From: a bacterium
Lineage (GTDB): Bacteria > Patescibacteriota > Patescibacteriia > UBA1558 > S5-K13
Assembly: GCA_029555085.1 (NCBI GenBank)
Contig: JAKPTO010000052.1
Location: 1 to 61,599, forward strand
Reading direction: 5' to 3'
DNA length: 61,599 nucleotides
Shown here one piece after another: positions 34,296-56,199 of this stretch (within the stretch, counting starts at the first letter, position 1; each line of letters begins with the position of its first letter). A program made the translations under genes and the position numbers. A model generated the notes under the pieces. It was not told where the DNA came from, searched no databases, and was given only the letters and a program-made list of their open reading frames with translations.

Positions 34296-36068
34296 CTATA
34301 TTTCCAAACTTCTATTCTGTACCTTTTCCAATAAATCTTTCACGAATTTGTCTTTTGAAATTTCAACTAAATCTTTTTGACCTCTCACGCGAACTGATAA
34401 TTTTACAGATGCGATTTCCTTATCTCCAATAACTAAAACATAAGGAATTTTTTCATGTGACGATTTTCTTATTTTATTTCCAACTGTTTCACTCGTATCA
34501 TCGATCTCAACCCTTATTCCAAACTTTTCAAATTCATCTGCTAATTTTTTACAATGTTCAATATGTGATTCACCAACTGAAATAATCTTCACCTGAACAG
34601 GGGAGAGCCATAAAGGAAATGCGCCAGCATAATGTTCAACCAAAACTCCCAAAAATCTTTCAACGCTTCCCAAAATTGCGCGATGAATCATAACTGGTCT
34701 CATTTTCTGATTATTTGGTGCTTCATAAGTTAAATCAAATTTTTCTGGCATTTGAAAATCAAGTTGAATTGTTCCGCATTGCCATCTGCGACCAATTGCA
34801 TCATTTAAATGAAAATCAATTTTAGGACCATAAAAAGCGCCATCACCCTCATTTAATTTGTATTCTTTTTTAGTTGAGTCAAGCACTTCTTTTAAAGTAT
34901 TTTCAGCAAGCGCCCAAAGTTCCGGATCTCCCATTGCTTTTTCTGGTCTTGTAGATAATTCCATTTGATATGAAAATCCAAAAGTAGAGTACACTTCATC
35001 AACTAAATTTATTAAATCTAATATTTCATCTTTTATTTGTTCTCGGGTACAAAACACATGAGCATCGTCTTGAGTAAAAAACCTCACCCTAAATAATCCC
35101 GATAAAACTCCTGACAATTCATGTCTGTGACAAATTCCAAATTCTCCAGCACGAATCGGCAAATCCCTATAAGAATATTGATGGGATTTGTAAATTAATA
35201 AATTTCCAGGACAATTCATTGGTTTTAGAGCATAATCAACTTCATCAACTTTTGTAAAATACATATTGTCTTTGTAGTGATCCCAATGCCCTGATTGTAA
35301 CCACAAAGCTTTGTTTAAAATTATTGGAGTTTTATTTATTTCATAATTTCTCTTATGCATTTTCTCTGTCAAAAATTCAACTAATTTATCCCAAATAATC
35401 GTTCCTTTTGAATGAAAAAATGGCATTCCAGGTGCTTCTTCATGAAAACTAAATAAATCTAATTCTTTTCCAATTTTTCTATGATCCCTGCGTTCTGCTT
35501 CTTCTAACAATTTTAGATAATCATCCAGTTCTTTTTGATTCTCAAATGCAATTCCATAAATGCGAGTTAACATTTTATTTTTTTCATTTCCGCGCCAATA
35601 AGCGCCAGCAAGTTTTGTTAATTTAAATGCGCAATCTTTTAATTCTCCTGTGCTTTCAACATGAGGACCACGACATAAATCAACAAACTCTCCAGTTTTA
35701 TAAGTTGAAACTTTTTCAACTGTTCCAAAATTTTCTTCGTCATTTATTTTTGTTGTACCTTTTTTATCCAAATCTTTTAATAATTCTACCTTGTAATCCT
35801 GATTTAATTTTATAAATAAGTTTATTGCATCTTTTAATTTCATTTCCTCTCGTTCAAATTTCAAATCAGATGAAATAATTTTTTTCATTTCATTTTCAAT
35901 TTCCTGTAATTTATCTTCTGAGATAGAGGATGGCAATTCAATATCATAATAAAATCCATTTTCAATACTAGGACCTACTCCAAATTTTGATTTTGGATAA
36001 AGTTTTAAAACAGCGCTCGCCATAACATGAGCAAGTGAATGTCTTAATAATTCCATATCTTTTTTCAT
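34296..36068 (-). CDS. thrS: Threonine--tRNA ligase without N-terminal TGS domain
   Basis: A 590-residue class II synthetase charging tRNA-Thr. It begins almost directly at the editing domain (LLRHSLAHVMASA, residues 7-19), so the ~60-residue TGS domain of typical ~640-residue ThrRS is absent. The zinc-site and catalytic motifs are present: MNCPGN, RAGEFGICHRHELSG (motif 2), FYGPKIDFH and RPVMIHRAILGS (motif 3). The C-terminal anticodon-binding domain is complete. It is preceded by a ~290-base leader with a T-box-like antiterminator and terminator, so its expression is probably controlled by uncharged tRNA-Thr. Confidence 0.95.
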   Translation of the reverse strand: MKKDMELLRHSLAHVMASAVLKLYPKSKFGVGPSIENGFYYDIELPSSISEDKLQEIENEMKKIISSDLKFEREEMKLKDAINLFIKLNQDYKVELLKDLDKKGTTKINDEENFGTVEKVSTYKTGEFVDLCRGPHVESTGELKDCAFKLTKLAGAYWRGNEKNKMLTRIYGIAFENQKELDDYLKLLEEAERRDHRKIGKELDLFSFHEEAPGMPFFHSKGTIIWDKLVEFLTEKMHKRNYEINKTPIILNKALWLQSGHWDHYKDNMYFTKVDEVDYALKPMNCPGNLLIYKSHQYSYRDLPIRAGEFGICHRHELSGVLSGLFRVRFFTQDDAHVFCTREQIKDEILDLINLVDEVYSTFGFSYQMELSTRPEKAMGDPELWALAENTLKEVLDSTKKEYKLNEGDGAFYGPKIDFHLNDAIGRRWQCGTIQLDFQMPEKFDLTYEAPNNQKMRPVMIHRAILGSVERFLGVLVEHYAGAFPLWLSPVQVKIISVGESHIEHCKKLADEFEKFGIRVEIDDTSETVGNKIRKSSHEKIPYVLVIGDKEIASVKLSVRVRGQKDLVEISKDKFVKDLLEKVQNRSLEI

Positions 36069-36088: not shown

Positions 36089-36359
36089 AATAAAAAAATC
36101 CCAAAAAACTTACCAATTTTGGGACCCTATTTTATCACTCAACAAATGTAAACAACCTACTACTAGAAACGAACAAAGTGAGCGAAGGGTGGTTCCACCC
36201 AAATTCTCTGCAAAATTCATGAAATTTCACAAAGCACTTTATAAATTGTCTTAAAGTTTAGAGCGCCTTATGGAGCTACTCTTACGAGTATTGGTTTGGT
36301 AAACCAATCAATCACTTCTGAAAAGAAGTATATCAAAAATATTTTTAAAATGCAAATAA
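36089..36359 (-). promoter_or_regulatory. T-box-like riboswitch leader of thrS
   Basis: On the minus strand the T-box core reads GGG-UGGAACC-ACC (36200-36188). Two mutually exclusive structures can form. The antiterminator pairs AATTTGGG (36205-36198) with CCCAAAATT (36123-36115) and ACC (36190-36188) with GGT (36126-36124), leaving the 7-nt UGGAACC bulge exactly as in T-boxes. The terminator pairs TCCCAAAA (36124-36117) with TTTTGGGA (36106-36099) and runs into seven T (36098-36092). UGGA would pair with UCCA, the 3' end of both tRNA-Thr genes of this window. An upstream hairpin (36290-36308) presents ACC, a Thr codon, in its loop. A canonical long Stem I is not recognised. Confidence 0.75.
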
Positions 36360-36443: not shown

Positions 36444-37622
36444 TTACTCTATAATAACTTTTATGTGATCTGCCATTTTAGGAGCTTTTTTAACCCAGAA
36501 AGGAGTAAATTTCACTTTTACATTTTCAACGCCCGCTATTGTTCTAAAATAATCAATTATTTCTTCCTGTGTTAACCCCTTGAATTTTTCTGTATTAAAG
36601 GCTTCTGCACCTGAATCAGCAACAATACTTGCAGATAATTCTGATTCTATAGTAGCGCTTTTTTCTTCAGATATGTAACCACTAATATGATATTTAAATG
36701 ACTCGTCATCGTAATTTAAAAGTTTTTGCCCCTGAGAAAGTTGTTTATCCAAAAGTGATTGCGCTAATTTAACTAGCTCTTCTTCATTAAAAACCACGCC
36801 CACAACTTTTAATTTTACTGTATATTCAAATTTCGAAACCTTGTCTCCTAATTTTTTATTAGCTGTTCTTGAAACAACTTCTGTATATATAGAATTTTCA
36901 TCTATTGTTTCATTTTGACTTAAAACTTCTTTTATTTTAAACGCTGCGTCAACTTTCAAATCATTTGTAAGTTCTAATTCTGCTTTATCAAAATCTTCCT
37001 GCGTTATTTGATTTATTGTTATGCTTTCTTTTGTCATTGCATTTTCTAATTCTCCGTAAACATATTTCTGCGAATCTGCATTAAGTCCTGGAATAGTGAA
37101 TTTACCAGGTTGTTCTGCATATTCTTCTCCAATTTCATCAGCTATAACATAAGCATTTATGGATCCATTTCCCGGAATAGTAACTCTGTCCTGTATCCTA
37201 AAAATCTTTCCACTTTGCGATTGAAATCTTGTTGTGGCAATAAGTGTTTGACTTGTGGATCTATTATTTACAATTTTCATTGTTCCACCATATTTATCTG
37301 CGGATGTTTTCTTTTCCAAAACATAGAATTCTTTAGTTTTTTCTAAGGTTAGCTCAACCATTCTCCCGTTTAAAATATTAGTTTCTAAATAATTATTATT
37401 AGTTATTCCTTCTTTCACTTGAGTTGTTGCGCTTATCTTAGCTGTTTGACTTTTTACTTTTACTATTATCTCTGCTCTTGATAAAGAAAAATATAAAATA
37501 ATCGCAACCAAAAATATTGTTGCAAAAATAAATATACTTGCAATTTTTTTATAAGTAGAGCTAATAGAGTTTGCTCTTGTTCTTTGTATATTATTACTTT
37601 CAAAATTTGTATTAATTACCAT
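36444..37622 (-). CDS. Membrane-anchored baseplate J/gp47-like protein
   Basis: A 392-residue protein with one transmembrane helix near residues 27-47 and a long extracytoplasmic part. The segment FRIQDRVTIPGNGSINAYVIADEIGEEY (quoted in parts: VTIPGNGSI, GEEYAEQPGKFTIPGL) resembles the beta-rich region of baseplate J-like proteins, a family label often given to such CPR proteins. The N-terminal anchor argues against a phage tail role and for an envelope-attached assembly. The function is unknown. It lies between thrS and dnaE on the same strand and has its own terminator. Confidence 0.6.
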   Translation of the reverse strand: MVINTNFESNNIQRTRANSISSTYKKIASIFIFATIFLVAIILYFSLSRAEIIVKVKSQTAKISATTQVKEGITNNNYLETNILNGRMVELTLEKTKEFYVLEKKTSADKYGGTMKIVNNRSTSQTLIATTRFQSQSGKIFRIQDRVTIPGNGSINAYVIADEIGEEYAEQPGKFTIPGLNADSQKYVYGELENAMTKESITINQITQEDFDKAELELTNDLKVDAAFKIKEVLSQNETIDENSIYTEVVSRTANKKLGDKVSKFEYTVKLKVVGVVFNEEELVKLAQSLLDKQLSQGQKLLNYDDESFKYHISGYISEEKSATIESELSASIVADSGAEAFNTEKFKGLTQEEIIDYFRTIAGVENVKVKFTPFWVKKAPKMADHIKVIIE

Positions 37623-55920: not shown

Positions 55921-55996
55921 GCCGTTGTAACTCAGTTGGTAGAGTAACTCCATGGTAAGGAGTAAGTCCGCGGTTCGAGCCCGCGCAACGGCTCCA
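55921..55996 (+). tRNA. tRNA-Thr (GGT anticodon)
   Basis: A 76-base cloverleaf: acceptor gccgttg / caacggc, D-stem actc / gagt, anticodon loop atggtaa with anticodon GGT, T-loop ggttcgagcc, encoded CCA. Discriminator base T73, so the 3' end is UCCA, complementary to the UGGA of the thrS T-box. GGT reads ACC (and ACU) codons. Confidence 0.95.
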
Positions 55997-56123: not shown

Positions 56124-56199
56124 GCCACCCTAGCTCAGTTGGTAGAGCAACAGTTTTGTAAACTGTGGGTCGTCGGTTCGAGTCCGACGGGTGGCTCCA
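56124..56199 (+). tRNA. tRNA-Thr (TGT anticodon)
   Basis: A 76-base cloverleaf with acceptor gccaccc / gggtggc, anticodon loop tttgtaa with anticodon TGT, discriminator T and encoded CCA. It reads ACA and probably other ACN codons. It again ends in UCCA, as the thrS T-box requires. Confidence 0.95.

Follow-up and report, generated by a model that had tools for sequence, protein, structure and literature searches.

The window, i.e., the whole analyzed stretch of 61,599 nucleotides, contains on its minus strand a threonyl-tRNA synthetase gene (thrS), a leader with a series of putative regulatory elements in front of it and another protein-coding gene further upstream. Two tRNA-Thr genes are located on the plus strand. 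The features are listed in Table 1. The leader measures about 230 nt, counted from P1 through the terminator, and only about 60 nt separate the two strands of P1.

Table 1. Features of the thrS locus and the two tRNA-Thr genes (RNA letters are given for the leader elements).
Feature	Positions	Strand	Observations
Upstream gene, 392 aa, no NCBIfam family	36444..37622	-	Homologue precedes the T-box in most relatives, directly in ~17 of 30 leaders
Sigma70-like promoter TTTGCA-18-TATACT (alternative reading TTGCAT-17-TATACT)	36327..36356	-	9/12 match; 6 nt between the end of -10 and P1
P1 5' strand, helix closing the putative codon-presenting domain	36314..36320	-	7/7 pairs with double-sided changes, 82% of cells paired
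Conserved GAUUG	36309..36313	-	A, U and G invariant in 30/30
Specifier hairpin AUUGGU-[UUACCAA]-ACCAAU, 6 bp, 7-nt loop	36290..36308	-	97% of cells paired, 6/6 pairs with double-sided changes
Putative Thr specifier codon ACC, cognate to tRNA-Thr(GGU), with invariant A on its 3' side	36298..36300	-	A-C-C-A invariant in 30/30
Variable hairpin(s) within P1	36262..36289	-	Length and sequence vary among relatives
Conserved CUAA, 3' partner of GAUUG in the internal loop	36258..36261	-	Invariant columns in unguided MAFFT alignment
P1 3' strand	36251..36257	-	Pairing and covariation
AAGUG, RRRxG purine string before Stem III	36235..36239	-	About 22 of 24 aligned leaders; motif as defined in PMC7583486
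Stem III hairpin	36206..36234	-	Covarying pairs, 95% of cells paired; followed by AA at 36205-36204
Antiterminator helix A1, 5' strand UUGGG	36198..36202	-	Pairing, covariation
7-nt T-box bulge UGGAACC	36191..36197	-	UGGA complementary to the tRNA-Thr 3' end UCCA
Antiterminator helix A2, 5' strand ACCC	36187..36190	-	Pairing
Antiterminator helix A2, 3' strand GGGU	36124..36127	-	Pairing
Antiterminator helix A1, 3' strand CCCAA, common to terminator	36119..36123	-	Sharing in 30/30 leaders
Intrinsic terminator CCCAAAA...UUUUUGGG and U tail	36092..36123	-	Hairpin 36123-36100, seven T 36098-36092
thrS, threonyl-tRNA synthetase without N-terminal TGS domain	34296..36068	-	TIGR00418, 712 bits, cut-off 384
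tRNA-Thr(GGU), 3' end UCCA, predicted ligand	55921..55996	+	
tRNA-Thr(UGU), 3' end UCCA, anticodon mismatched to ACC	56124..56199	+	

Expression platform and profile evidence

In the leader, UUGGG-UGGAACC-ACCC (36202-36187) pairs with GGGU-CCCAA (36127-36119), leaving a 7-nt bulge. The initial annotation had described the core of this structure, GGG-UGGAACC-ACC with its GGU-CCC partner at 36126-36121, and both letters and positions are as given there. It had also described CCCAAAA as the 5' arm of a terminator with a tail of seven T, which agrees with our reading; since this stretch is common to the antiterminator and the terminator, the two folds are mutually exclusive. The insert separating the antiterminator halves exists as annotated, at a length of 59 nt instead of the suggested 70 or so bases (7-110 nt in relatives). 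The unconstrained fold contains the terminator and has an energy of -29.7 kcal/mol, as compared to -22.5 kcal/mol with the antiterminator enforced, suggesting that the default state is OFF, as expected of a switch that needs its ligand for ON. The 316-nt leader was more stable than each of 100 shuffled sequences (z = -2.93).

The search with the Rfam T-box model RF00230 that the initial annotation had proposed gave, at permissive settings, a weak match of 21 bits exactly at the leader (36345-36183, minus strand; E = 0.016 over 601 bases). A search of the entire 1.02-Mb genome (99% complete) gave no other match up to E = 10 and an E-value of 0.006 for this one. A lone match located exactly in front of an aminoacyl-tRNA synthetase gene is already suggestive of a T-box. 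The score is below the gathering score of 93 bits, which is a curators' threshold fitted to members with a long Stem I and not a biological criterion; at gathering scores, Rfam reported no T-box at the thrS leader and the four tRNAs of the window were the sole matches. The Trp_leader_2 model scored slightly higher than RF00230 at the leader (27 bits, E = 0.16), far short of its cut-off of 100, and was rejected because the match rests on the terminator and one shared stretch. A weak RF00230 match in genome G003 (L004), located within a coding sequence and lacking the T-box core, was discarded.

Conservation among the thrS leaders of the order

Leaders of thrS were gathered from the order by a protein search with the synthetase (ThrRS), independently of Rfam, and 30 of them were readable. 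All 30 genes have GGUGGAACC upstream and the UGGAACC core in their leader, including those of genomes that were missed by RF00230. All 30 leaders have the same order of parts, namely P1, GAUUG, the ACC hairpin, variable hairpins, CUAA, the 3' strand of P1, a linker and Stem III, followed by A1, UGGAACC, A2, the insert and the 3' strands of A2 and A1. The GAUUG segment has few variants. The hairpin loop NNACCNN is 7 nt long and shows ACC in 30/30 leaders; the stem forms 6/6 pairs in most leaders and 5 in a few, L150 being the weakest.

For 65 paired or anchor columns in the 30 leaders, 92.9% of the cells were paired, as compared to 69.1 ± 1.1% after shuffling and at most 51.2% after sliding. 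Double-sided changes were counted in 162 cells (47.9 in shuffled data) and affected 19 of the 21 pairs; for A1 and A2, 98% and 100% of the cells were paired, respectively. Because the partners in this set of columns had been picked with pairing in mind, the count was repeated on an unguided MAFFT alignment of 24 leaders, in which 92.8% of the cells were paired versus 61.9%, with 149 versus 45.3 double changes, Stem III included. The invariant letters (A-UUG, ACCA, CUAA and GGUGGAACC) correspond to the codon with its 3' A, the bulge and the internal loop, and the latter stays fixed while all surrounding helices change. About 22 of the 24 aligned leaders retain the RRRxG string before Stem III together with the AA that follows the stem.

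These letters also bear on leader-peptide attenuation, in which a ribosome stalled at threonine codons would select the antiterminator. A terminator and an alternative fold do exist, as that mechanism demands, but the leader has no short frame rich in threonine, with at most two Thr codons in any frame, and what is conserved is the sequence of a T-box bulge. We therefore regard attenuation as practically excluded.

The A2 pair next to the bulge is A-U in the window; among the 30 leaders it is G-U in 14, A-U in 13, G-C in two and U-A in one, and its 3' U is kept in 27. A G-U pair at the base of A2 is conserved in known T-boxes and has been proposed to sense 3'-aminoacylation.

A terminator-like hairpin with a T-rich tail starts in the 3' strands of A1 or A2 in all 30 leaders. 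The terminator takes the 3' strand of A1 in each of them, suggesting that the exclusivity of the two folds is general. Thus the aligned relatives retain both the bulge and the exclusivity in 30/30 cases, with strong covariation, and the loss of either, which the initial annotation had named as speaking against its claim, was not seen. The low RF00230 score and a reduced architecture that lacks both the long Stem I and Stem II might indicate a decayed T-box that no longer switches and has left a constitutive terminator or weak constitutive readthrough. However, six families retain the same elements, with numerous compensating changes, and coupling of the terminator to A1 is invariable; since a decayed element would not keep codon, bulge and helices, we consider such a remnant very unlikely.

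The best sigma70-like promoters matched 9 to 12 of 12 consensus positions in all 30 leaders, and in 26 of them the -10 element ends 4-10 nt before P1. The 9/12 match in the window is weak alone and expected by chance, and the promoter argument rests on the relatives. Based on their promoters, transcription seems to start at P1, so that a conventional Stem I would not fit. We rejected a long Stem I located 5' of P1, because the promoters lie directly before P1 in 26/30 leaders and no conservation is seen further upstream.

Codon, bulge and architecture

The initial annotation had noted that the UGGA of the bulge is complementary to UCCA, and both tRNA-Thr genes of the window do end in UCCA. The ACC triplet that it had placed in a hairpin loop 95 bases upstream was found at 36300-36298, about 100 nt 5' of the bulge. 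Among the 33 distinct tRNAs of the genome, only those for Thr (three), Gly (two) and Cys (one) have a discriminator U. Of these, tRNA-Thr(GGU) alone also has the anticodon for ACC and so suits both contacts. By inspection, the UACCA present in most loops is complementary to positions 37-33 of this tRNA, i.e., to A37, the anticodon and U33.

Codon and bulge vary together in front of the different synthetase genes: ACC with UGGA for thrS, GUC with UGGU for valS and AAC with mostly UGGC for aspS. With tRNA 3' ends read solely in the window's own genome, the UGGU bulge of the valS leaders, which present GUC in an apical loop, corresponds to Val tRNAs ending in ACCA, and the bulge of the four aspS leaders of the class that show AAC (UGGC in three, UGGU in one) to tRNA-Asn ending in GCCA. 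The valS leaders (L102, L092, L135 and others, from the order and the class) form a second ultrashort type with a terminator. The AAC in the hairpin loop of the aspS leaders L133, L138 and L139, plus L136, points to tRNA-Asn and not to tRNA-Asp; judged from these sequences, the aspS T-boxes would be compatible with an AspRS that is non-discriminating and serves Asn as well.

The discriminator U is likewise found in the tRNA-Gly of the window's genome, and the glyS leaders of the phylum use UGGA. Cores with UGGA precede glyS-like genes, identified by eye, at L298, L302, L308, L309, L311 and L314. In genome G018, a T-box with UGGU (L086, 1990-3153) lies before an anthranilate phosphoribosyltransferase-like gene (TrpD domain, below the curated cut-off).

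Autogenous control by ThrRS also had to be weighed. In E. coli, the thrS operator is likewise a tRNA-like hairpin in the thrS leader; there, ThrRS binds an anticodon mimic and blocks translation, whereas in the present leader a codon occupies the loop and a terminator serves as the platform. A 7-nt loop resembling an anticodon arm and the location before thrS are what a hairpin mimicking the anticodon arm of tRNA-Thr would predict, but the loop triplet is the codon ACC and not a Thr anticodon (GGU, UGU or CGU), and the valS and aspS loops show GUC and AAC. Nor would ThrRS binding explain the invariant UGGAACC, the RRRxG-Stem III-AA segment or the antiterminator that shares its strand with the terminator. 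Control of the E. coli type is therefore extremely improbable.

Taken together, the bulge, the exclusive folds, the discriminator, the ACC loop, the relatives and the covariation bear out the initial annotation, which had claimed a T-box-like element before thrS. Its anatomy is far above chance and the leader is almost certainly a T-box riboswitch, with readthrough predicted to depend on tRNA. The elements, their covariation, the exclusion of the folds and the double match to tRNA-Thr(GGU) are established at the level of sequence. The divergent or reduced architecture that had been suspected is borne out: Stem I is ultrashort, presents the codon in its 7-nt apical loop and is enclosed by P1, and Stem II is lacking.

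The thrS leaders have neither an elbow-binding motif nor a recognizable K-turn or long Stem I. Class I T-boxes are characterized by a long Stem I with elbow-binding interdigitated T-loops, which the thrS leader lacks. Class II T-boxes have a Shine-Dalgarno sequestrator, where an intrinsic terminator with a U tail is seen in 30/30 leaders, and a Stem II S-turn and Stem IIA/B pseudoknot F-box; a search of the 30 thrS leaders recovered the S-turn AGUAGA in one and an F-box-like sequence in one.

Firmicutes thrS class I T-boxes (RF00230) share the UGGA bulge, the fold exclusivity, the purine string of Stem III and the position before thrS. The core was present at 38 of 64 thrS loci checked from named genomes, mostly Bacillota, usually about 300 nt upstream. 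In Firmicutes, however, the specifier is located in a side bulge and accompanied by a long Stem I with an elbow-binding motif, whereas it occupies here the 7-nt apical loop of a 6-bp hairpin. The ACC hairpin was absent from all Firmicutes leaders checked, which gave only scattered matches to 5 of 6 pairs.

The ultrashort Stem I T-boxes of ileS in Actinobacteria similarly have an apical-loop codon, a very short Stem I and no elbow-binding motif. The ultrashort Stem I has been tied to translational T-boxes that depend on Stem II (Actinobacteria ileS, Sherwood et al. 2015, reviewed in PMC7583486). The ileS type thus acts on translation through Stem II, whereas the thrS leaders have a terminator and no Stem II, and add the closing helix P1 with the conserved GAUUG/CUAA. 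The valS and aspS leaders of the same class likewise have the apical codon (GUC, AAC), the bulge fitted to the tRNA end and the terminator. Unlike the thrS leaders, they mostly keep S-turn-like (AGUAGA/GAAGAAA) and F-box-like (CCGUUA) sequences, the former in 8 or 9 and the latter in all of 10 valS leaders as motif matches. We hypothesize that the GAUUG/CUAA loop below the codon hairpin substitutes for Stem II.

Thus, the leader is very probably a transcriptional T-box riboswitch of a reduced type, with tRNA binding, the sensing of charging and the direction of control all predicted from its structure. RNA polymerase would begin just 5' of P1, and the nascent leader would fold into a small domain consisting of P1, the GAUUG/CUAA internal loop and the hairpin. 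The ACC exposed in the 7-nt apical loop would pair with the GGU anticodon of tRNA-Thr. A charged tRNA-Thr could not be held by the bulge; CCCAA would then join the terminator and transcription would stop.

The T-box kind is already known; judged from the open-access literature, the architecture and the host group are new. We lean towards a third T-box class, which would be transcriptional, present a bare codon in a 7-nt apical loop resembling an anticodon loop, replace the elbow-binding Stem I and Stem II by GAUUG/CUAA enclosed by P1, be widespread in one class of the CPR/Patescibacteria and be kept where the synthetase gene has apparently been exchanged.

Synthetase gene, distribution and significance

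In a tree of 78 ThrRS sequences, the family of the window is separated from most of the order and groups with three sequences labelled DPANN and with others mainly from Bacillota. Constraining this family into the main clade of the order was rejected (p-AU = 0.022), the group having been named after the tree was seen. The upstream gene is the same at about 17 of 30 loci, including those of the window and genome G002. The ThrRS stands outside most of its order, but the leader conforms to the type found in that order and the upstream gene is shared. This would be most simply explained by replacement of the synthetase gene in place, with the riboswitch retained, for which there is moderate evidence (34296-36068 in the window, also L142 and L143). 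Joint acquisition of leader and gene from Firmicutes is unsupported, as the Firmicutes leaders checked lack the ACC hairpin. The nearest ThrRS relatives among the sequences examined, from the DPANN metagenome-assembled genomes L005 and L009, have no T-box core. In genome G002 (L003, 1929-2549), the T-box and thrS are separated by a HAD-family phosphatase-like gene, which may share the switch.

In the order, 26 of 36 genomes gave RF00230 matches (E ≤ 0.1), none over the cut-off and nearly all before thrS or valS. Matches were found in at least 165 of 381 genomes of the class (E ≤ 0.01; at least 10 over the cut-off) and in at least 127 of 380 genomes of the phylum (E ≤ 0.001; at least 13 over the cut-off), these two counts being lower bounds because few candidates were scored per genome. 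A covariance model of the thrS form built from the order (R1) matched 180 of 381 genomes of the class and 34 of 362 in the phylum sample, where weak matches include glyS and others. Its best matches outside the training order are thrS leaders with GAUUG and the ACC hairpin from other families of the class; this recovery is an independent test that the model passed. The core was present in four of 29 other thrS leaders sampled across the phylum, suggesting that the trait belongs to the class and not to the phylum as a whole.

Further loci in CPR-type genomes, before argG, glutamate-cysteine-ligase-like and other genes, scored up to 126 bits with RF00230 and have long Stem I-like leaders (L112-L132, e.g. 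L117 and L132, also L118-L120; L140 for argG). The thrS leader L237 of the phylum sample is very short, with an ACC hairpin about 40 nt before the bulge and no obvious Stem III.

Ribosomal protein uL30 is missing from 17/17 relatives and present in 13 of 14 controls. Its absence, the genome size of about 1 Mb and a group of more than 200 families are consistent with the CPR/Patescibacteria, and the host is a tiny, probably episymbiotic bacterium. T-boxes are known chiefly from Firmicutes and Actinobacteria; a survey listed them in these two groups, Chloroflexi, Deinococcus/Thermus and two Proteobacteria (PMC2494555), and for TBDB the translational class was sought in Actinobacteria and in those class I hits whose Stem I is truncated. 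Among 5.39 million open-access papers we found no report of a T-box in CPR, Patescibacteria or Parcubacteria; unlabelled CPR entries may exist in databases, because some CPR leaders exceed the Rfam cut-off.

The presence of T-boxes in a large share of the sampled CPR-type genomes of about 1 Mb widens the known range of tRNA-sensing RNA, and minimal cells would thus be seen to regulate tRNA charging at the level of single genes. The thrS form bears on the mechanism, as its transcriptional platform is joined to an ultrashort Stem I while Stem II is absent; according to current models, such an RNA should bind tRNA too weakly and too slowly. The small size of the leader (~230 nt) suits direct biochemical and structural study of the minimal needs of a T-box. 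For genetically intractable organisms such as these, it offers a predicted regulatory circuit that may be tested.
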